Assembly: GCF_020700235.1 (NCBI RefSeq)
Contig: NZ_CP085302.1
Location: 124,001-188,000, forward strand
Source of the DNA: Haladaptatus pallidirubidus
Lineage (GTDB): Archaea; Halobacteriota; Halobacteria; Halobacteriales; Haladaptataceae
Direction of reading: 5' to 3'
Length of the DNA stretch: 64,000 nt
The notes beneath the pieces were generated by a model. The model did no database searches. It was not told the DNA's origin and worked only from the letters and a program-made list of their open reading frames with translations. This document shows, one piece after another, positions 12,829 through 57,080 of the stretch. The translations under genes and the position numbers were made by a program. Within the stretch, counting starts at the first letter, position 1. Each line of letters begins with the position of its first letter.

Positions 12829-13611
12829 ATGGCTGAACGTAATCCAGACACTGTTCAATTGAAATTCGAGAATGGGAGCCTCGTTGAGCAGATGCCAGAA
12901 AAGTTCTACCTCCACGTCAGAACAAAGGCTGACGTGGACGCTCCCGAACCACGCGAGAACGGAACGGTTCTCGGTGTGGACCTCGGGATCGAAAACTTTG
13001 TCGTCACTTCGACCGGCGTGTTTTGGTCGGCCTCCGAACTTGACCACTGGCACCGTGAATACGAAAAGCGCCGTGCGTCGCTCCAACAGTGTGGGTCTCG
13101 CTATGCTCACGAGAATATGCAAGCGGTCGGTTTGAAAGAGACGGGCCGATTCAAACAGCTCTTGCACCGCGTTTCGAACGAACTGGTTGATGAAGCCGAC
13201 GAACGCGGCTGTTCGCATATCGCGTTCGAGGACTTAACCGATATCCGTGACCGGATGCCCGGCGCGAAACGGCTTCACACATGGGCATTTCGGCGTCTGT
13301 TCTCCTACGTCGAGTACAAGGCCGAAGAACGCGGTATCACGGTTCAGCAGGTGAACCCGGCGAATACCTCGCGTCGGTGTTCGTCGTGTAGCTTCACTCA
13401 CGAGGATAACCGTCCGTCGCAGGATACGTTTGAGTGTTTGAAGTGCGGCTATGCGAATCACGCGGACTACAACGCGGCGAAGAACATCGGTTACAGGCTC
13501 CTTGGCACGCAAACCGCTGGCGAAGGAGGCGCACCCGTAGGCGTGCGCTTGAACACCGGGATAGTGAACGCGAACGGCGTCACAGCCGTACCAACGTTGG
13601 TTAGAGCGTGA
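12829..13611 (+). CDS. tnpB: TnpB (IS200/IS605 OrfB) nuclease, N-terminally truncated
   Basis: 260 residues against about 400 for a full TnpB. The RuvC core is present: GVDLGIENF (first Asp), AFEDLTDI (Glu) and [11 protein letters not shown] (last Asp), with a zinc ribbon CSSC...CLKC between the last two. The N-terminal wedge and recognition domains are gone, so RNA-guided cleavage is doubtful. TnpB is an RNA-guided nuclease that helps retain IS200/IS605 elements. The partner TnpA is absent. The right-end hairpin follows the stop at 13626-13645. Confidence 0.8.
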
Positions 13612-25509: not shown

Positions 25510-26050
25510 TGCCTTCTTACATATGGTAGACTGGCTTTTGCCAGTGGTGGCTAACATTTCAAAGCCGGAAAGGCCGACCTCCTCTGTAATCGGTGATTGA
25601 CCCCGTAGAGCCAAGCGACGGACAATCCGAATCGCGATCATTGATTTCCAGAGATCCCCTCAATCGAAAATTTGTGTCTTATCTACCTTGTATTCTAAAT
25701 TTTCCCGCCAATTTTGTTTACGAGAGGTGGATCGATACCCACTAAGTTGACAGCCTCGAAGGAACAGTTTGCTCAGGCTCTTTACCGTGAGCGTCGAAGC
25801 ATATGCTATTAGACGTGCTGGCGGTAGACATAAAAAACGCAGGAATACTGAGCAGGATCACTAATATTCTAAATGTTGCCAGCGCATACTTCACGTACGA
25901 CGAGTTCCGGTAGCCAAAATACGTGACACCCGTTTTGAAGTAATACAATCACGTAGAACAAACTGCTCAAACTGTTCTAGCAGATCAATGTGTACCTGGG
26001 AGTGTTTCATTGCAATCAGTCAGATTTGCCTTCTTCGGCAATCTGTTTTT
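25510..26050. other. Intergenic stretch
   Basis: No convincing gene. A 68-codon minus-strand frame at 25742-25948 has one hydrophobic segment (ALATFRILVILLSIPAFFMS) but no promoter or recognisable family, so it is only a possible small membrane protein. Confidence 0.3.
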
Positions 26051-26821
26051 ATGCCAGATGCACTCGCCAGCGTGGAGGACGCGTTAGACATCCCTGACGA
26101 CGCAGACAATGAGGAAATCGCCGACGCTGTCGCACACTACCGAGAGCATCATCCCGTAATGAATCGATTGGCTGGTGCTCGCGAGGTCTACATCGAAAGT
26201 GAGCACACGACCGGCAATAGCCAACCCTCACAGACAGTCCGAAACGTCATGCAGGCGGTCAACGAAGGGAAACGATGCCTGCTCGTCTCGCGGGAACAGA
26301 CAGCTAGACGTGTCCATACAACGCTCCTCAAGGAACCGAAGGGCTGTCACAAGAACCATTCCGTCGATGGCGAACAACGCTTCTACACGCTCACGGGAGA
26401 CGTAGCGATCGACGGCGAGATCATAACTCGTCCTGGGAGCAGCGACAACGTCTGGGTGTATGAAGAGAGCAGTGGGGAGTATGTCCTCCGTGACGACAAC
26501 AGAACAGAGCACGCTCGCTTCGAGAACGCTGAGGCGATCTTCGAGGATGCTACTGCCTACCCGATGGGCGGCGACCGATCGATAAAAGCGCCGATCATTC
26601 CCGACTATGACACGGACATGCTGGACATCATCGTCGTCAAAGAAGACGCAAAGACGCCAGCAGACTTGTTCCTCTACCGATCTGATGGCGACCATGTCCC
26701 GCTGGATATGCTTGCTACCGACGACGGGGAAGCTATCCAGACGATCGCTGACGACGAACACAGCCACGAGGAACCCGAGTCAGAAGATGACGGCGGAGAT
26801 ATCGTTGACGCCCTCCGTTAA
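26051..26821 (+). CDS. Hypothetical haloarchaeal accessory protein
   Basis: About 256 residues from MPDALASVEDALDIPDDADN. It is acidic, with a mixed alpha/beta pattern (EGKRCLLVSREQTARRVHTT, RFYTLTGDVAIDGEIITRPG) and a very acidic C-terminus. I recognise no catalytic motif. The segment on multi-residue batches (NVMQAVNEGKRCLLVSRE) recalls NTP-dependent helicase-like linkers but without Walker motifs. Its stop overlaps that of the convergent wHTH gene by four bases, and the two sit beside the 27.5-28.65 kb repeat array. Confidence 0.6.
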   Translation: MPDALASVEDALDIPDDADNEEIADAVAHYREHHPVMNRLAGAREVYIESEHTTGNSQPSQTVRNVMQAVNEGKRCLLVSREQTARRVHTTLLKEPKGCHKNHSVDGEQRFYTLTGDVAIDGEIITRPGSSDNVWVYEESSGEYVLRDDNRTEHARFENAEAIFEDATAYPMGGDRSIKAPIIPDYDTDMLDIIVVKEDAKTPADLFLYRSDGDHVPLDMLATDDGEAIQTIADDEHSHEEPESEDDGGDIVDALR

Positions 26822-27336
26822 TTGACGTCGAGCAGGTCGCGCATCTTTGCGACGTTCTCGTCACTCACTGCATCACTTTTCGACGCCAGCAAGACGAGCG
26901 CTTTCTTGATTTTCTCCTGATCGTCCAACTGATTCTCGACTGTTTCAAGCCGATTCTCTACAGCTGCTACCCGCGCTGCTGTCTCGGTAGTTGGCGGTGG
27001 ACTGAGCGCCGTGTCAGTCGTCTCGATGAACTCCTCGGCGAACTCGGTAAGTCGCCAGATCCGTGCTGGGCGGCCACCACCAGCGGGGTATTCTCGCTCC
27101 TCTGTGTCCTCGATCAGTCCCCACTCTTCCATCGTTACCAAGTGGTGATTAGCACTTCCTGTTGGCACGTCAGCACGCTCGCGAAGAATGGATGTGTTCA
27201 ACTCGCTTTCATCTGCATTGGCGAACGCAGCAAGGATGCTCCGGCGGTGCTGGCTCCCCTGGTTGAGCTTCCGCTCGATAGTGTCCATCTGTGCACCCCT
27301 GTCCTCGTCGTCATGGTCAGATGTATCAGCTGGCAT
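26818..27336 (-). CDS. Winged-helix regulator with C-terminal coiled coil
   Basis: 172 residues. A winged helix (GSQHRRSILAAFANADESEL, SILRERADVPTGSANHHLVT) with wing GGGRPARIWRLTEFAEEF, then a coiled coil AARVAAVENRLETVENQLDD that would dimerise it. Such haloarchaeal HTH proteins are often plasmid-borne. Transcription would start next to the repeat array on its upstream side, with a TATA-like CGTAATATTATAG at about 27370-27382. It is the best local candidate for a protein binding the array, by position only. Confidence 0.72.
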   Translation of the reverse strand: MPADTSDHDDEDRGAQMDTIERKLNQGSQHRRSILAAFANADESELNTSILRERADVPTGSANHHLVTMEEWGLIEDTEEREYPAGGGRPARIWRLTEFAEEFIETTDTALSPPPTTETAARVAAVENRLETVENQLDDQEKIKKALVLLASKSDAVSDENVAKMRDLLDVN

Positions 27337-27521
27337 GAGTAGTCACAAGCAAGGATAACGGAGTGAGGAAACTATAATATTACGATTGTACCAAGTTGGT
27401 TTACCTAGGCCGAAGGAAGAGCTATGGGAACCAACCAATGGGCAAAAACTAGCGAAGCCGGGCTATCAGAGAGAATCATCAGAAACTGGAAACAAGTGTG
27501 TACGACACAACGCAGGGGGCT

Positions 27522-28651
27522 GGCACCCCCCGAATACAGAGTAGAATGAACCACCGAGAACCACAGACGAATCCAGGACAGCTGGAGCCAGTTGGCACCC
27601 CCAATCTATCACGAAGCAGATGATACTCAACACACGCGAAAAGGGGCACCCCAACAGACTACCAGCAGAGGTATCTGAGGTAATACGACGGAGCAGACAG
27701 CCAGGAGCAATAGCACCCGGACAGTCTACCAAAGTGAATCCTCGACGACAACCAGGACACGAAGAATGGGACAGTCCACTATCCAGAACAACCGGGAAGA
27801 AGAACATCGAAAGAGGAGACAGTCAGGCCGTGCCGAACCCAGAGAAGAACAGCAGAGTGACGAAAGGAGACAGTCCGACAGTGTGACGAGCAGAACCACG
27901 AAAAAGAGCGTACTGGCAGCAGGGACAGCTAGACAGCACTGGCGGCAAGCCGCCATGAGTAGTACTGGGCAGTGTACCGCACAGCGAGGAGACCGCAACA
28001 GCACAGCAATAGCACAATGACAGCCGAAGTGGAATGACGACCAACACAAGCGAGTGTGACCGTGATACCCTTGAGCCAGTGATAGCCGAGAAGAGTGGAC
28101 AGTCTGGCCTGCCAGGATATACTGAGAAAGCCGCGAAGCGACTATGAGGGGTGCCAGTATCCGCACTGGAGTGGGGTGCCGATGAGCGACACGCAATCAA
28201 CCAGTCTTGGTACACTAGTTGAGGTGCCAAGCAGCACGCACTTACGGAATGCCCGTGTGACGGCAGAGGTGGGGTGCCACATGGGCGCCATACTGGGGTG
28301 TCAACAGGAGAGCGACCGTCTTCCATAGAACGCACGAGGAGGCGGCAGTGAACAGCACTGCCAGACTGTCCACAGGACGTCAGGGGACCGCGCCTGAGCC
28401 GGTACAGGGCAGCATTTTGGACTGTCCAAGACTGAGCAGTACAGTAGAGATAAGCAGGCTAGAGCCCGGTGGACTGTCCTCTGAGTACTAGCAGGAGTAA
28501 GTCATATCTAGCGGCGGTGGGACTGTCAAGCGAGCGCTGTTACAACGGAACTCTGGTGTGTCACCAGCGGGACTGGCAGGAGCTTAGGCTGACTGTCTGT
28601 CCGGTGGAAAAGCAGAGGAAACCTGGTGTGTTTCAGCTGGGTGGGCACCCC
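27522..28651. repeat. 1.1-kb non-coding array of GGCACCCC and GGACNGTCC words
   Basis: Word A (GGCACCCC or its complement GGGGTGCC, allowing one change) is at 27522, 27594, 27645, 28148, 28173, 28221, 28271, 28295 and 28644. Word B (GGACAGTCC or GGACTGTCC, allowing end changes) is at 27719, 27769, 27817, 27869, 28097, 28364, 28419, 28471, 28520 and 28591. Orientation switches: the left half has GGCACCCC and ACAGTCC, the right half mostly GGGGTGCC and GACTGTCC. Spacing is irregular, and all six frames lack gene-like protein. A centromere, replication origin or silencer is possible; no known element is claimed. Confidence 0.6.
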
Positions 28652-28756: not shown

Positions 28757-29053
28757 TCAGTCATGGTCATCGCCGGTCAGTGGCTCGATCTGCAGACTAT
28801 CTGGGGACACCGTCACCCGACAGCCAATGTATTCGAAAGTAACCGTTGGGCCAGAGATGGCTTCGGGGGTGTTTTCAAAGAGTGAATCCAACGCAACTGG
28901 ATCAGTCCAGTTAGAGAGTGATTCTATCTTTGTGGCAGGCTGATGCAGTGCGTCGGCCATCGCCGACACCACGGCCATACTTGGCGGCTGACTGTAGTGT
29001 TGTTTGAAGACCGGTTCTATGTTGACGTCGGGTGGATATGAGTGGTCTTTCAT
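28757..29053 (-). CDS. Stand-alone HalOD1 protein 1
   Basis: 98 residues. It carries the halobacterial output domain pattern: an N-terminal helix (SMAVVSAMADALHQPATKIE), the DPVALDSLF signature in place of DPDALDALF, then a beta hairpin VTFEYIGCRVTVSPDSLQIE. HalOD1 is normally the C-terminal output part of receiver or sensor proteins, so its partner is presumably provided in trans. It lies six bases downstream of the DUF7344 gene on the same strand and is probably co-transcribed with it. Confidence 0.75.
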   Translation of the reverse strand: MKDHSYPPDVNIEPVFKQHYSQPPSMAVVSAMADALHQPATKIESLSNWTDPVALDSLFENTPEAISGPTVTFEYIGCRVTVSPDSLQIEPLTGDDHD

Positions 29054-29059
29054 TGATGA

Positions 29060-30250
29060 TTAAAACAGCGATTGCGATTCAGAATCGTGATCTTCAGTCT
29101 GATCATCAAGTTTAGCGAATTGGGAGCGTATCATTTGCTGCAGCAAGATAACGAGTGTGTTATCAGCCCCTTCAGCGAAGATCGCTTGTTCTTTGTGGAC
29201 GCCTGCATCGGACTTCTCCCCAAGTGTTCCGATCATAACGGCTTCACGGTCAGCGAATACGAGACGGCCAACGTTCTCCCCATCGACCGGAAGGTTAAGC
29301 CAGTTCGTCTGTGGTTCCCACAAGGTAACCTCTGGAGCATGTTCTCGAACGAATCCTTCGACAGTCGGATCAGCAGTCCCAAGGTAGACGTCTACACCGC
29401 GGTCGGCAGCTTGCTTGATACGGGAAAAACACCCGGCCTCAAGGAGACCAGTTGCCGTGAACATTAGGAAGAGTTCTTCGTCGGCCTCCTCACAAAGTGA
29501 TTGGCCACACGAGACCGTCTTCTCTCGACCATCGATTGTCCAGATGTCTGCATCCTTTGGCGTGTCCGTCAGGGTCGCTCTGAAGTTTGAACCGAGCTCG
29601 GAGTGCATCCATGGAACACGAAGGAGTGGGTGACCCTCATAGACGACCGTTTCTTCGTCCGTATTATACTCGATGAGCCCTGCCTCCTGCAGATGTGGGA
29701 GATGAACGTGCTGGAGGGACTGGAGAACCTGCTCGACGTCCTCTGGTGGCCCGCCTCGTTGAGTCGAAGCGATGTCGTGTGCCAGCGTCTGGAGTTTGAT
29801 CGGATGATATTGATGGCTGAGTACGTCGAGAATGGTTCGACGACGGGCATCTGCGAGCGCCCGAAAGAGTACATCGAGAGATGCGCTCTCCGCAGATACG
29901 TTATCCGTGATGGCTGCGAGGATATCGACATCCTGATAGGCTGGATGGTTGGTGAGTTCGACAGTGGTATCAGTGGTATTTTGCCGAATCAATCCCGCGG
30001 TGTCCAACTTCGGCAAATGGACGTGATGGATGGCGGTCAGTGTCTGCTTGCGTTCTTCGTTGGTCACTTGCTCCAGTGAGTGGTTTTTGTTGGCTGCCAG
30101 GCTGGTAGCGAGTTCATCTCGCGTTATAGACGCAGGAGCGTGGTCGTGAATGTATCCTAGAAGGTGGCGTCGCTCGCTACTTGCTAAGCATGAAAAGAGG
30201 GCGTTCAGGGAGCCGCCTCCCTTTTCAAGTCTGCCGTTCTTCTGACTCAT
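29060..30250 (-). CDS. Tandem DUF7344 winged-helix protein with TrmB-like C-terminal domain
   Basis: About 396 residues from MSQKNGRLEKGGGSLN. Two DUF7344 winged helices occur in series (LFSCLASSERRHLLGYIHDH with HHVHLPKLDTAGLI; LFRALADARRRTILDVLSHQ with QHVHLPHLQEAGLIEYN). A C-terminal alpha/beta domain (DEELFLMFTATGLLEAGCFS, RGVDVYLGTADPTVEGFV) resembles the effector or phospholipase D-like part of haloarchaeal HTH regulators. The minus-strand TATA-like TTTATTCATA near 30270-30282 fits the ATG at 30250 as a leaderless start. The next gene, a HalOD1 protein, follows within six bases. Confidence 0.75.
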   Translation of the reverse strand: MSQKNGRLEKGGGSLNALFSCLASSERRHLLGYIHDHAPASITRDELATSLAANKNHSLEQVTNEERKQTLTAIHHVHLPKLDTAGLIRQNTTDTTVELTNHPAYQDVDILAAITDNVSAESASLDVLFRALADARRRTILDVLSHQYHPIKLQTLAHDIASTQRGGPPEDVEQVLQSLQHVHLPHLQEAGLIEYNTDEETVVYEGHPLLRVPWMHSELGSNFRATLTDTPKDADIWTIDGREKTVSCGQSLCEEADEELFLMFTATGLLEAGCFSRIKQAADRGVDVYLGTADPTVEGFVREHAPEVTLWEPQTNWLNLPVDGENVGRLVFADREAVMIGTLGEKSDAGVHKEQAIFAEGADNTLVILLQQMIRSQFAKLDDQTEDHDSESQSLF

Positions 30251-30297
30251 TCTAAAGTAGGTTGCGAAGAGTATGAATAAACATTCGGGCTGAATAA

Positions 30298-30441
30298 TCA
30301 GCTTGTATTTCGATACTGTACAAATTCGTCGGGAGTGGCGACCCGATGTCCGCACGGACTGAGAGAGACCCGCAACGGGCTAGACACCGTTATAGGCCCA
30401 ACAACCCGCTGACAGTGGGGACACCGGTACTCAGCCATCAT
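30298..30441 (-). CDS. Small zinc-binding protein
   Basis: About 47 residues, MMAEYRCPHCQRVVGPITVS with a second half CGHRV, so four possible zinc ligands in a CPHC...CGH arrangement. It is preceded by a SprT zinc-ribbon remnant on the same strand. Small proteins like this are frequent in haloarchaea. No function can be given. Confidence 0.45.
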   Translation of the reverse strand: MMAEYRCPHCQRVVGPITVSSPLRVSLSPCGHRVATPDEFVQYRNTS

Positions 30442-30802: not shown

Positions 30803-31099
30803 ATGGGGCAACCAGACGAAACCGAGCTGTACTATCCACACGAAGATCGATCACTGAGCCAAGCAGCCCTGAGTGCGTTGGACGAGACGCACGAGACAGC
30901 ACTGAGAGACGCTGATTTCACTCTCTATGATCATATTGACCCTGACGCGCTCGATTCGTTGTTCCAAGCCGATGCCGATGCGCCAATCACTGTTACATTT
31001 GCGGTTGAAGAGTATGATGTGACGATTTGGGGCGATGTGGGAATTCACATCCACGTTCAAGATGACGGAGAGGATGCTCCCGGAAGAGATGAGACGTAA
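30803..31099 (+). CDS. Stand-alone HalOD1 protein 2
   Basis: 98 residues. The helix LSQAALSALDETHETALRDA is followed by the signature HIDPDALDSLFQ and the strand pair ITVTFAVEEYDVTIWGDVGI. The core matches the halobacterial output domain over most of the protein, with no receiver or sensor domain attached. It may work with the Bat-type regulator that begins 160 bases downstream on the same strand. Confidence 0.72.
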   Translation: MGQPDETELYYPHEDRSLSQAALSALDETHETALRDADFTLYDHIDPDALDSLFQADADAPITVTFAVEEYDVTIWGDVGIHIHVQDDGEDAPGRDET

Positions 31100-49446: not shown

Positions 49447-50733
49447 TCATTCACCGAGCGTCATTTGTCTATTCGCCTGTTCACGGAGATTATCTAAGTC
49501 GTTAATTTCACCGTCCTCTTCTTGTTCGAGCGCATCAATCACGGTTTCGAGTGGCGTGTCGAGCTTGTATTTATTTGGTCGGCCTCGACCGCGCTGATCT
49601 CGATTCACGTTTTTCAGTATCCCGTTATCACACATCTCAAGTAAGTGTTCGTGCGCTCCACGTCGAGTAAGGGGGTCACGACCGAATTCCTGAGCCACCG
49701 TTTTGTAGTACTCGTAGATGTCCCTCGTTTGTGCGGGCGTCTTTCCTTGGGCAGCGAGATTCGTTACAGCAAGCAAGACGTACTTTCGATGGGTGGTGAG
49801 CTTTCGAATACCAGTAGTTACCAGTTTTCGCTCGATAATCTCCTCAGCGTCACGGACGTGCTGCTCTTCGATACAATCGAGATCATCCGATTCTACGGCT
49901 TCGTTCTCTGCCAGTTCGGCTGCTTTACGCAGCAGTCGAATTGCTTGACGAGCAGACCCGCGATCACGAGATGCCAATGCTGCACACAGTTCGATAACCC
50001 CTGTCTCAGTCGTGTCCTCATAGAACGCTTGCTCGGCCCGGCGGGACAGAATCGAGATAAGATCGCTCTGTTCGTACGCGGGAAAGTGAAGCTCGGTTTC
50101 ACAGAGCGTGTCCTTCACCCGAGCAGGAAGGTCATCTCTGAAATTGAAGTCGTTGCTGATGCCGATAATACAGAGTTCAGCCTCGAGTTTGTGCATTGTT
50201 TGCGCCCGAGTGAGCTGATAGAGGAGTTCGCTATCGCTGCCAAGCGTATTCACTTCGTCCAGCACGAGGATGATGTTGTCTGCAGCCTCATTGAGGTCAT
50301 CGAAGAGTTCGTCGTAGACTTGTTCAGCAGGATAACCGGTCTTACTTAATTCGGGTTTATTGAGGTTGAGTGTCGTAAGTGGATATTCAGGATTGCGTGC
50401 CTCATTAATGAGTTCGATCGTCGACTGATACGATGTGTTTGCTGACGAGCAATTAACCTCGAGCAGATCAACGTCAATATCCTGATCCTCGGCAGTTTCT
50501 CGCAGATCGGGGAGGAGTGTCCGTGTCGCGACGGTCTTACCAACGCCAGAGTGCCCATACAGAAAGATATTATCGAGATCCCAACCCTTCAACAGTGGTC
50601 GAAGGAGTTTCACATACTCTTCGAGTTCTTCATCTCGTTCTTCCAGTTTCTTGGGTTTGTATTCCGGTTTCAGGACGCTTCGATCCTTAATAATGTATTC
50701 ATCGAGAAATCCATCATCGTCAAAGTATCCCAT
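49447..50733 (-). CDS. orc1/cdc6: Orc1/Cdc6 replication initiator 1
   Basis: About 428 residues from MGYFDDDGFLDEYIIKDRSV. The AAA+ motifs are LDNIFLYGHSGVGKTVATRT (Walker A), NIILVLDEVNTLGSDS (Walker B) and GISNDFNFRDDL (sensor 1). The initiator-specific motif is KDRSVLKPEYKPKKLEERDE, and a C-terminal winged helix begins near AQGKTPAQTRDIYEYYKTVA. It binds origin boxes and starts replication. The longer ATG at 50787 adds residues that lack family match. It is divergent from initiator 2, with origin boxes on both sides of it. Confidence 0.93.
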   Translation of the reverse strand: MGYFDDDGFLDEYIIKDRSVLKPEYKPKKLEERDEELEEYVKLLRPLLKGWDLDNIFLYGHSGVGKTVATRTLLPDLRETAEDQDIDVDLLEVNCSSANTSYQSTIELINEARNPEYPLTTLNLNKPELSKTGYPAEQVYDELFDDLNEAADNIILVLDEVNTLGSDSELLYQLTRAQTMHKLEAELCIIGISNDFNFRDDLPARVKDTLCETELHFPAYEQSDLISILSRRAEQAFYEDTTETGVIELCAALASRDRGSARQAIRLLRKAAELAENEAVESDDLDCIEEQHVRDAEEIIERKLVTTGIRKLTTHRKYVLLAVTNLAAQGKTPAQTRDIYEYYKTVAQEFGRDPLTRRGAHEHLLEMCDNGILKNVNRDQRGRGRPNKYKLDTPLETVIDALEQEEDGEINDLDNLREQANRQMTLGE

Positions 50734-51244
50734 GTGAGTTTTACTCACGGGAAGACGTAATAAAACCACCGCTTCCAACGTTTCCACCCCACACCACCAC
50801 TTCCAACCCGTCCTCTACTTATAAAACACACTCCCCCCACTATTTCCAACTTCACCTTGAGAACAAACGGAGCTGTTTGATATTGAATGTATAAGAGGGC
50901 AAAGATTTATGTTTATTAAAAATAAACTATACCCGTACTGGGATCAAAATAGACGTTAGTGTAGCCACCGACTGTTGTTTGGGTTATAGCTCTCGCGGTC
51001 TCGTTGGATGTTGGTACTCGTTCTTTGCTGAAGTTGGAAGTAGTGGGGTGGGAGGGGATTATAAAAGATCCCGTGGTTGGAAACACTGGTACGGTTGGGG
51101 GTTCTTCACTTTGTGAGACCGGAATTCGACTTGAAATGGTGGTGGGATCCATACCATAGATTGCATTTTCCGAGATAACCGACGGGAGCCTGCGGTACTG
51201 CTCATACGTGAGCTCTCCTTGTTCGAGGTGTGGATATTGTGAGT

Positions 51245-51259
51245 TAGGATAGTATACTA
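51245..51259. promoter_or_regulatory. Palindrome site 3 (imperfect)
   Basis: TAGGAT-AGT-ATACTA in the origin gap, an imperfect copy of TAGTAT-N3-ATACTA. It adjoins a degenerate minus-strand stretch (QGELTYEQYRRLPS) related to the 48038-48265 gene. Confidence 0.35.
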
Positions 51260-52729
51260 ATATCGGATTGCAGTATAATCATTGTCGGCAAAATACATAC
51301 GATGGAGATGTGCGCTTGAATTGTATGACACTGAATGTGATTTAACAAGACATGCTTCCTGCACCTCCCCTAAACAGAGATACAGAACAAGAACCACATG
51401 AAAGTCCCATCTTCAACGGAATGAACGGACGGTAGCCTCGAGCGACTATGGACTGATAGTTAATAGCCTATACAACTCCCGTAGCGATATCACAACGAAA
51501 GAGAACTGATCAGATGGCTTTTCTCGAGTTGGAATATAATACTAATTAAATATCAATTTTATGATCGACCGACTATCCACTCGACGCAACAAATGGGAGG
51601 GAGAGAGCACTGGGAACAATGCTTTCGATTTTTGAGCTCCCCCCTAATGGTCGTCCAACCCTGAAGTCAGATAACATCCTCTAAAACCCCATTGTAATCA
51701 AAGTTACTAGTGGAATACGGATTAATTTGTAACATTTATGTTAAAACTTTTCCGGGTATGGTCTGGTATATCGCGCTCCAGTTGATAGAGGGGAAGCACT
51801 AGAAACGCCATTCTCTCTGTGGTCTTCATGTTCAAAGAACGACTTTCACGAAAACTTATCCCCGCCTCACAAAACCTATAATGATTGATATCGGATGTTA
51901 GAACTGGAATTGACAGTTGATCTTTCCACGGAAACCATTCATATCTATTTCTCGACGCTAAAAGGTCACGGGTTTGTCAGTCGCATGTCAGACCCCACCG
52001 TTTCCACTAATATGATTACATGACTCGACGAGCAATTTGAGGTTAGCACTCTCCCCCCACTGTTTCCAGTAAAACACGGAAGAAGCCGGAATCAATTTTT
52101 GCTATAAATAATTTCACGAGTGTATCTACTCTAGTAACTGGTTTTTCCGAGGCTACGGGGTAACTAGAAGACAAGGGATATAAAACTTTCCATTAATTTA
52201 GTGTTTTCTCAAAGAAGACAGACGCTTCTGGAACACTTTACTGGAAATAGTGGGGAGGGGGTGTTCCGAGTATCTTCACAATTTCACCTACTCGCCTGCT
52301 TTCGATTTCTTTTTCTCGGTTAATTAGTGGAAACGGTGGGGTGTGTCCCACTTATAAATAACCATTTACTGGAAATACTGGAACAAGGTGGTTCACGCTT
52401 CGATCTCTTGGCATCTTGTTTGCGCGGCTTTTTACTGGAAATTGTGGGATCAGTAGCCGCCTCGTGGCCTCAATTTTCACAGGAAATTATGGGGGTGTCT
52501 TGGTATCAGAAGTCAATAGACTACCGAAATGGCAGTTCCATTAACGTGAGAATTGCCGCTCAGAGGAAATGCAATCTACATTGAAGTTGCCAGTAGGAAG
52601 CTTCGCTTCTTAAGGCGAGCGAGGATCTCACTACTGGAAATGATGGGGTGTAAATCCATTAGTGGAACTCGCGCCCACCGGTGGTTATACTGGAAATAGC
52701 GGAAACGTCGGTAGAAACAATTATCATAC

Positions 52730-53992
52730 ATGGCTGACTTATTTGAGACCAGTATGGCTCCTCGATTCCAACCGGATGATACGCTCTACAAGCGACGGAA
52801 TACACTAAAAGTAGAGTACGTTCCTGACGAGATCGTTGGGCGAGACAATGAAATTGAAGAGTACGAAGCCGCTCTACAGCCGATCATCAACGGGGAGTAT
52901 CCCGACAATATCTTCATCTACGGTAAGACAGGCGTCGGAAAGACTGCGGTGACGAACTTTCTACTCAATGAATTGGAAGACTCCGCGGATCACTTTGATG
53001 TCGATATCTCAGTCGTCACTGTCAACTGTGACGGTCTCAGTACGAGTTATCAAGCTGCAATCACCCTCGTTAACAAATTCCGAGAACCCGAACATCATAT
53101 CGCCGAAACCGGCCATCCACAATCCAAGGTTTACCGCCTTCTCTGGAACGAACTTAACAAACACTCAGGAACCGTTCTTATTATCCTTGACGAGATCGAC
53201 CACATCACAGACGATACGTTCCTCTATCAGATTACTCGCGCCGATAACAACGGCTACATAAACAACATTCAACTCGGTCTTATCGGCATCAGTAATGACT
53301 CGACGTTCCGAGAGCATCTCGATGCAAAGGTGCAGTCATCGCTCTGTGAAACAGAGATTTCATTCCCACCGTACGGAACGGAAGAACTCCAAAAGGTGCT
53401 CGAGCAGCGAGCCAAAATTGCATTCCATCAAAACGCGCTCGAAGATGGGGTGATTCCACTCTGTGCAGCACTCGGTCGACAGGATGGTGGTGATGCTCGA
53501 CGGGCAATTATGCTCCTTCGGAAAGCCGGTGATCTCGCTCGAACGGAGAATGCAGAAGCAGTCACGACCAACCACGTCGAACGTGCGCAGGAGAAACTCG
53601 AGGCCCAACAGAGCATGGACATCATGCGCGATCTTACCGAACATGAGCAACTCACCTTATACGCACTGATAACGCTCGCCGCCGAGAATGCAACCCCGGC
53701 CCGCTCACGTGTTGTGTACCAACGTTACAAGGAACTCTGTGAATTTCAAGGGCGTGATCCTCGCACGGCCCGTCGAATGCGGAGCTTCCTCTCCGATTTC
53801 GAGATTCTCAATCTTACTCTTTCCCAGATGGAACACCGTGGCCAAGATGGCGGCACGTATCGCGAACACGAGGTCAATCGCGACATCGCGACAGTCGTGG
53901 ACGCACTGCAAACGGTTATCAGCGAGTTCGGTGCTCACCGGAGTATCATCGAGTATCTCCCTGATTCCGGTGAGGAATTTCCTGCGATGTAG
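52730..53992 (+). CDS. orc1/cdc6: Orc1/Cdc6 replication initiator 2
   Basis: 420 residues. Initiator motif LYKRRNTLKVEYVPDEIVGR, then Walker A NIFIYGKTGVGKTAVTNFLL, Walker B TVLIILDEIDHITDDT and sensor 1 LIGISNDSTFREHLDAKVQS. The C-terminal winged helix starts about LTLYALITLAAENATPARSR. The ATG at 52730 follows origin boxes at 52630 and 52687, so the gene may be controlled by its own product. It differs from initiator 1 in the N-terminal 50 residues and lid, which suggests two separately acquired initiators. Confidence 0.93.
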   Translation: MADLFETSMAPRFQPDDTLYKRRNTLKVEYVPDEIVGRDNEIEEYEAALQPIINGEYPDNIFIYGKTGVGKTAVTNFLLNELEDSADHFDVDISVVTVNCDGLSTSYQAAITLVNKFREPEHHIAETGHPQSKVYRLLWNELNKHSGTVLIILDEIDHITDDTFLYQITRADNNGYINNIQLGLIGISNDSTFREHLDAKVQSSLCETEISFPPYGTEELQKVLEQRAKIAFHQNALEDGVIPLCAALGRQDGGDARRAIMLLRKAGDLARTENAEAVTTNHVERAQEKLEAQQSMDIMRDLTEHEQLTLYALITLAAENATPARSRVVYQRYKELCEFQGRDPRTARRMRSFLSDFEILNLTLSQMEHRGQDGGTYREHEVNRDIATVVDALQTVISEFGAHRSIIEYLPDSGEEFPAM

Positions 53993-56134: not shown

Positions 56135-56194
56135 GAATAGCATGGCTGAATCGAATAGTATGAATAGTACAGATAGGATAAATAGCCCAAATAG
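56135..56194. repeat. Partition array M (GAATAG, 9-bp period, inside parA)
   Basis: GAATAG or near copies lie at 56135, 56153, 56162, 56171, 56180 and 56189, all in one 9-bp phase. The first is on the predicted transcription start; the rest are codons 5-18 of parA (SNSMNSTDRINSPNSP). Confidence 0.75.
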
Positions 56195-57080
56195 CCCGTA
56201 CGAATCTGTGGATACGAGCGGGACGTCACGAGCCGTCTCAGTCTGTATGCTGAAGGGTGGCGTCGGGAAGTCGACCATCGCGGTGAACCTCGCGCGTCAG
56301 CTGGCTGCCCACGATCACGATGTCCTCCTCATTGATCTCGACCCGAATGGACATGCCTCGGTCGGTCTCGGGTTCGATGACCACTACCATGACACGGATG
56401 AGAGTATCGGTGAGGTCTTCTTCGACGATGCGGATCCTGCGTCAGTCATCTCCGATACCGACTACGAATTCGATATTCTTCCTTCAAGCGAGAATCTTGA
56501 GCAGGTTGAGCGAAAAATCGTCGTGGGCGATATCTTCCAGCCGTCTGCACTGTTGCAGCGCGAGGTCGTCGACCCACTGCTTGGTGACGATTACGACTAT
56601 ATCGTTACTGACTCGCCTGCCTATCGCTCGCGATTGACTGACAACGCACTCGTCGCGACATCCAATCTCGTTCTCCCACTTGCACCCGGCAACGAGGCCA
56701 TGTCTGGACTAGAACGCACCATCGAGCGTCAGATTTCCCCGCTACGTCGACACATGGATGTCGACGTCCTTGCGCTCGTCCCGAATATGCTGAACAGTCG
56801 TATCGATCAGCAAACGCAGGATCGGCAGCTGCTCGAGCGATTGAACTCTCACGCCAGCCTGCAAGACCGCATTCCGAACTTTGCGCGAATCACGGACTGG
56901 GAGGCCGTTGACGCGGGCGACAGTAAGCCCACACCCGGTATCCGCGACCGAACTAACATCACGAAAGCATACGGCGAACGGCAACCGCTGTTGGACTACG
57001 ACCCCGATTGTGACCAATTGACCTGTTTCAACGAACTTGCGCACATCGTCGAGGCTGGCAAGGTGATTCGCAATGAGTGA
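56142..57080 (+). CDS. parA: ParA-type partition ATPase
   Basis: 312 residues. The deviant Walker A motif is MLKGGVGKSTIAVNLARQLA, followed by VLLIDLDPNGHASVGLGFDD (A' motif) and the Walker B-like YDYIVTDSPAYRSRLTDNA. ParA/Soj proteins move plasmid copies by forming ATP-dependent gradients on the nucleoid. The TATA box AGATATAAG at 56105 would start transcription near 56136, on the first GAATAG site. The first ~27 residues are made of the repeat array and add little fold. The stop overlaps the next gene by eight bases. Confidence 0.9.
   Translation: MAESNSMNSTDRINSPNSPYESVDTSGTSRAVSVCMLKGGVGKSTIAVNLARQLAAHDHDVLLIDLDPNGHASVGLGFDDHYHDTDESIGEVFFDDADPASVISDTDYEFDILPSSENLEQVERKIVVGDIFQPSALLQREVVDPLLGDDYDYIVTDSPAYRSRLTDNALVATSNLVLPLAPGNEAMSGLERTIERQISPLRRHMDVDVLALVPNMLNSRIDQQTQDRQLLERLNSHASLQDRIPNFARITDWEAVDAGDSKPTPGIRDRTNITKAYGERQPLLDYDPDCDQLTCFNELAHIVEAGKVIRNE

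Follow-up and report, generated by a model that had tools for sequence, protein, structure and literature searches.

Which function can be assigned to an array of 1.1 kb (27522–28651) that is filled with two short words and looks free of genes? It lies in a window of 64,000 nucleotides (the whole stretch of DNA analysed here), which belongs to a replicon of 572 kb in a Haladaptatus-like haloarchaeon with a genome of 6.27 Mb in seven contigs. An earlier note on this DNA had proposed a second centromere, a cryptic origin or a silencing region.

Two words in a fixed order

The array contains four copies of GGCACCCC and three of GGGGTGCC (A-words) together with two one-mismatch copies of GGGGTGCC, as well as five GACAGTC and five GACTGTC (B-words), in agreement with the nine A-type and ten B-type words counted in the earlier note. 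These numbers are well above shuffled sequence and the background of the window: dinucleotide-preserving shuffles of the region gave a mean of 0.06 A-words compared to seven exact ones observed, the top 7-mer on both strands reached at most six copies in 500 such shuffles versus ten for GACAGTC/GACTGTC, and in the 62.5 kb of the window outside the array only three exact A-words and 13 7-mers of the B type are found. The switch in orientation described before was confirmed as well, as all five GACAGTC are located upstream of all five GACTGTC and the A-words run +++ --- +. With regard to the supposed palindromic B-word, GGACNGTCC is indeed a palindrome apart from its central base, but only a few copies retain the 9-mer in full. 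The ‘orientation’ of a B-word is therefore that base (A on the left, T on the right), and its sorting is near perfect across the arrays. The ORFs listed within the region overlap each other in several frames and look spurious, and the region is regarded as non-coding, as claimed.

Reading from the start of the neighbouring wHTH gene, a conserved TAATATTA (27375–27382), seen in an alignment of 25 copies, may represent a TATA box or an operator of this gene. Block 1 (27522–27652, + strand) consists of GGCACCCC at 27522, 27594 and 27645, and block 2 (27719–27875, +) of GACAGTC at 27720, 27770, 27818 and 27869 with a spacing of 48–51 nt. It is followed by a word-free centre (27876–28097), for which an alignment of array centres from Haladaptatus and Natrialbaceae revealed conserved stretches such as GGCGGCAAGCCGCC and AGTGT..ACCGCACAGC, and by a lone fifth GACAGTC at 28098 (28097–28104, +), 50 nt ahead of block 3. 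The latter (28148–28302, − strand) shows GGGGTGCC at 28148, 28173 and 28271 and the one-mismatch copies at 28221 and 28295, and block 4 (28364–28597, −) shows GACTGTC at 28364, 28420, 28472, 28521 and 28591. The terminal GGCACCCC (28644–28651, +) is no exception to the switch but a recurring fifth block, being also present in the arrays L045, L063, L282 and others.

At least 27 homologous arrays were identified, 24 of them in Haladaptatus genomes and the rest in Natrialbaceae and Halocatena. When 27 arrays were compared (a duplicate array was left out), their collapsed order was A+ B+ a− b−, often followed by A+, or spelled out GGCACCCC, GACAGTC, GGGGTGCC and GACTGTC, sometimes with a further GGCACCCC; departures are occasional local extra switches, one array lacking A+ and one lacking b−. 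The distances between like words cluster at 25–27, 48–52, 73–76 and 96–104 nt with a best period of 25.1 nt (R 0.62, N 674), and no helical phasing at 10.5 bp was detected in this comparison (R 0.09). When the region was compared to its own genome by BLAST, two more copies were found on the chromosome and others on contigs C2, C4 and C5, and the module on contig C7 was reached via its pump gene. Two arrays on the main chromosome (L038 and L039; G000:C1:2199754 and 1647905) are identical even though they are 550 kb apart, each with a wHTH gene, suggesting a recent segment duplication. A broader search revealed array copies in eight of the nine genomes of the genus and no convincing ones in two sister genera. 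Arrays of the same words are also found in the Natrialbaceae Haloterrigena KLK7, pHTUR02 and Natrinema zhouii as well as in Halocatena (Actinarchaeum) halophila and isolate YIM A00010; a GACAGTC triple pattern was used for genome contigs, of which only the haloarchaeal matches were considered, most matches being chance or coding repeats. In Haloterrigena KLK7 (L297, NZ_CP149788 region) approximately 1.1 kb, which looks like an insertion, splits the array between B+ words and leaves the block order intact on either side.

Two plasmids of Halococcus dombrowskii carry arrays of GGACCCC/GGGGTCC and GGATGTC/GACATCC at the corresponding position beside a homologous wHTH gene, with 10 and 12 word matches compared to shuffle means of 0.4–0.5 and maxima of 3–4. 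Their block order is A+ (a−) B+ a− b− (A+ or a−). Thus, both words and their reverse complements are respelled together in Halococcus and the architecture is unchanged. A weaker third version is present on a plasmid of Halobacterium hubeiense, with seven matches (shuffle mean 1.2, maximum 5) and a B-word that was picked after inspection.

A wHTH gene and a conjugation pump beside the array

The gene adjoining the array (26818–27336, − strand) encodes a wHTH protein with a long C-terminal helix, the coiled coil, and its product is the proposed reader of the words. All six homologues found in the genome with a family profile adjoin an array, so the gene is part of the array unit, and the link drawn in the earlier note holds true. 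Its AF2 model shows the wHTH and a helix at residues 117–153 with moderate confidence (mean pLDDT 66.7). Using Foldseek, the MarR family was the best match, and TubR was among the matches with high target coverage (TMt 0.67–0.71). A homologue from Natrialbaceae matches PF13814 (Replic_Relax) at 3e-4, which is below the curated cut-off. Judged from the sequence, the array is most likely a series of sites read by a protein as suggested before, and the wHTH protein may well be the one that binds the words.

On the other side of this gene the window holds the truncated 3' end (26051–26821, +; 256 codons) of a gene for a coupling protein (T4CP) of the VirD4/TraG/TrwB type, convergent to the wHTH gene and with overlapping stop codons. 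It aligns to the C terminus of intact T4CPs of about 915 aa, and the first 21 codons of the ORF (25988–26821) are unrelated to them. The intact T4CPs match TrwB_AAD_bind (1.1e-6), TraG-D_C (2.4e-5) and TraD-type NCBIfam models, and VirB4 is encoded upstream of them (NF045975, 1.6e-39; NF045971, 5e-29) in all nine distinct modules with an intact T4CP and an A/B array for which the upstream sequence was inspected. As shown by a comparison of Haladaptatus, Haloterrigena KLK7, Halocatena halophila and YIM A00010, the order VirB4, T4CP, convergent and overlapping wHTH, and array is kept at T4CP identities down to about 33–45%. VirB4 and VirD4 genes are clustered in the complete copies, which in the own genome are located on contigs C4 and C7, whereas the window copy retains the wHTH gene and the array with only the end of the pump gene, as does pHTUR02. 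In about nine Haladaptatus arrays, including the two identical chromosomal ones, the wHTH gene is present and a T4CP is absent from the flank read, indicating that the array outlives the pump.

Of 155 haloarchaeal genomes sampled, 36 encode related pumps, which also occur in 85 plasmid records, 78 of them typed as ‘non-mobilizable’ by MOB-suite. More distant VirD4 pumps from Natrinema and Halomontanus have no adjoining array as judged by repeated 8-mers, including the whole Natrinema plasmid NZ_CP101874. The C-terminal domain of the pump shows a conserved Q and PDG...ExE...QT..N (window 26051–26821; L226:520–3267, L229:1069–3885), and the PDG...ExE motif is suggestive of a PD-(D/E)XK nuclease; as AF2 gave no usable fold for this domain (mean pLDDT 34.6) and Pfam no match, this reading comes from inspection of the motif only. 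A virus origin was also considered and rejected, as no pump relative was confirmed in IMG/VR and the viral contigs matching the word pattern encode no relatives of the pump, the wHTH protein or VirB4. Further genes in the window are those for two HalOD1 proteins and one DUF7344 protein beside the array (28757–29053, 29060–30355 and 30803–31099), all ordinary haloarchaeal families, and for an OrfB_IS605/Cas12f-like TnpB-type protein (12829–13611; PF07282, PF01385).

A candidate transfer locus and its rivals

From linkage and architecture we infer that the array is rather probably a cis-acting recognition or transfer locus of haloarchaeal conjugation, clt-like or an oriT, with the wHTH protein as its reader. 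This protein would bind along the array to both words in their given orientations and build an ordered nucleoprotein platform, which would pass the DNA on to the VirD4-type coupling ATPase encoded by the convergent gene. Together with VirB4, this ATPase would pump the replicon into the recipient. The array would then have the role that clt has for TraB in Streptomyces, or that oriT and the relaxosome have in relaxase systems. The joint conservation of pump, wHTH and ordered array over haloarchaeal families fits a cis site for a shared transfer machine, and identical words on several replicons within a cell fit a machine that acts in trans. As the window copy keeps reader and site, the complete modules of C4 and C7 might serve to mobilise it in trans, and solo wHTH–array units would then resemble mobilisable loci. 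Against a transfer locus we count the arrays without T4CP, the AT skew of the left half described below, the missing 10.5-bp phasing and the distant VirD4 modules without array.

A search of the whole genome with Pfam Relaxase PF03432, the single relaxase family used, gave no match, and a hairpin or nic-like repeat adjoining the first GGGGTGCC was rejected as its stem length equals that of shuffled sequence. In known archaeal conjugative plasmids a relaxase has not been identified (PMC12857230, PMC3158045, PMC4390865), and how DNA is chosen and its export started in such relaxase-less plasmids is an open question (PMC3158045, PMC12857230). A tentative and rather doubtful idea is a relaxase-free transfer, in which the wHTH protein would read the lattice of A, B, reversed A, reversed B and A with its 25-nt pitch and deliver it to a VirD4 pump with a PD-(D/E)XK-like motif, so that reader, cutter and motor would parallel phage terminase on a pac site.

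The functions proposed in the earlier note found no support as first choice; the 3' end of a VirD4/TraG gene adjoins the wHTH gene, and the plasmid has orc1/cdc6 and ParA genes of its own at a distance of 22–29 kb. The most serious rival, even if unlikely, is a partition centromere, where the wHTH protein would coat the array as a TubR/ParR-like adaptor and tether the replicon to a segregation motor. A wHTH, a coiled coil and an iteron array are the anatomy of such systems, the Foldseek matches include TubR, and both Halococcus plasmids have annotated ParA genes a few kb from the array. However, ParA was looked for around the Haladaptatus arrays (TubZ and ParM were outside the search) with no match within about 3 kb, the ParA gene of the window replicon (56142–57080) is 28 kb away, and the conserved neighbour is a conjugation pump and not a cytomotive filament gene. 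Furthermore, the same words in the same order occur on several replicons of one cell and repeatedly on one replicon, which would cause incompatibility and argues against a replicon-specific centromere. A replication origin with iterons is most improbable: the repeats are iteron-like, and the ORF-free, repeat-rich section B of Sulfolobus conjugative plasmids has been called a putative origin of replication (PMC4390865), but no replication-initiator gene adjoins the array, the flanks of the arrays that were read gave no match to Orc1/Cdc6, and several arrays exist per replicon, including the chromosome. The window has two orc1/cdc6 genes on opposite strands (49447–50787 and 52730–53992), which flank an AT-rich gap (50788–52729) that is probably the origin of the replicon.

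It also seems quite unlikely that the array is transcribed, starting at the side of the wHTH gene, into a long non-coding RNA in which the left-hand words pair with their right-hand complements within or between molecules. The words on the left are the exact reverse complements of those on the right, and the left half (27522–28086) is A-rich and T-poor with an AT skew of 0.55, the 95th percentile elsewhere in the window being 0.20; over 31 arrays the mean skew is 0.45 with positive values in 30, an excess that is not accounted for by double-stranded protein sites. The flanks of B-words are more alike when compared on the same strand than after reversal, those of A-words favour the reverse strand, and this test is mixed overall. 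A structured RNA, which the earlier note had named as a refutation, did not emerge from the alignment, with its poor consensus structure, from Rfam with no match within the array, or from windowed folding, which was no better than shuffles (mean z about −0.25, the same as controls). In addition, words in the succession A B a b could not pair in a nested fashion, their numbers differ between the left and right sides, and they are invariant between copies and do not drift with compensation. Thus, the missing folding signal weakens the RNA reading and the strand asymmetry keeps it alive. We regard as very unlikely a regulatory or silencing region at which the wHTH protein as a repressor controls the conjugation operon: the protein is MarR-like and the array adjoins its promoter, but the wHTH gene lies between the array and the tra operon, the start of which is several kb upstream of the array, the at least 17 sites over 1.1 kb in fixed alternation exceed an operator, and arrays persist without the operon.

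Coming back to the transfer locus, array and wHTH gene offer a sequence-defined candidate for a cis site and its reader. The array might also be used as a marker for mobile haloarchaeal DNA in view of the many pump plasmids typed as ‘non-mobilizable’, and two words that alternate in a fixed manner but can change their spelling form an unusual DNA architecture. Such arrays are undescribed in the literature searched, which covered few of the subscription papers.

Comparison with known systems

KOPS and SRS of FtsK/SpoIIIE are oriented 8-bp words, which a wHTH domain recognises on behalf of a DNA pump. The array similarly has oriented words, a pump and a proposed wHTH reader, but it is compact, whereas KOPS and SRS are spread over a chromosome arm and serve an FtsK-type motor. 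In the centromeres TubR–tubC and ParR–parC a wHTH or dimeric adaptor sits on an iteron array; the array described here differs from them by its link to a conjugation pump and by having no recognised cytomotive NTPase next to it (with the search scope given above). It resembles an oriT with its relaxosome in being a cis site next to the genes of an accessory DNA-binding protein and a coupling protein, and oriT-type sites are often retained by mobilisable elements after pump loss. In contrast to these, the genome has no gene of the Pfam Relaxase family and the array no identified nic site or hairpin above shuffle level.

Conjugative plasmids of Sulfolobus encode VirB4 and VirD4 homologues, have no identifiable relaxase and carry the ORF-free repeat section B (PMC4390865). 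They are thus similar as archaeal plasmids that combine such homologues with ORF-free repeats, but their repeats are different (e.g. TCCCCGGAACT) and a two-word alternation has not been reported for them (PMC4390865). TraB of Streptomyces reads the 8-bp repeats of clt (PMC12857230, PMC4170104, PMC5365140), and these clustered short words (TRS) on a plasmid near the pump gene are the likeness to the array. However, TraB combines pump and C-terminal HTH in one FtsK-like protein, whereas here a VirD4-type ATPase, matching TraG-D_C, TrwB_AAD_bind and TraD models, is accompanied by VirB4 and a separate wHTH protein, and two words stand in ordered alternation on a 25-nt lattice.
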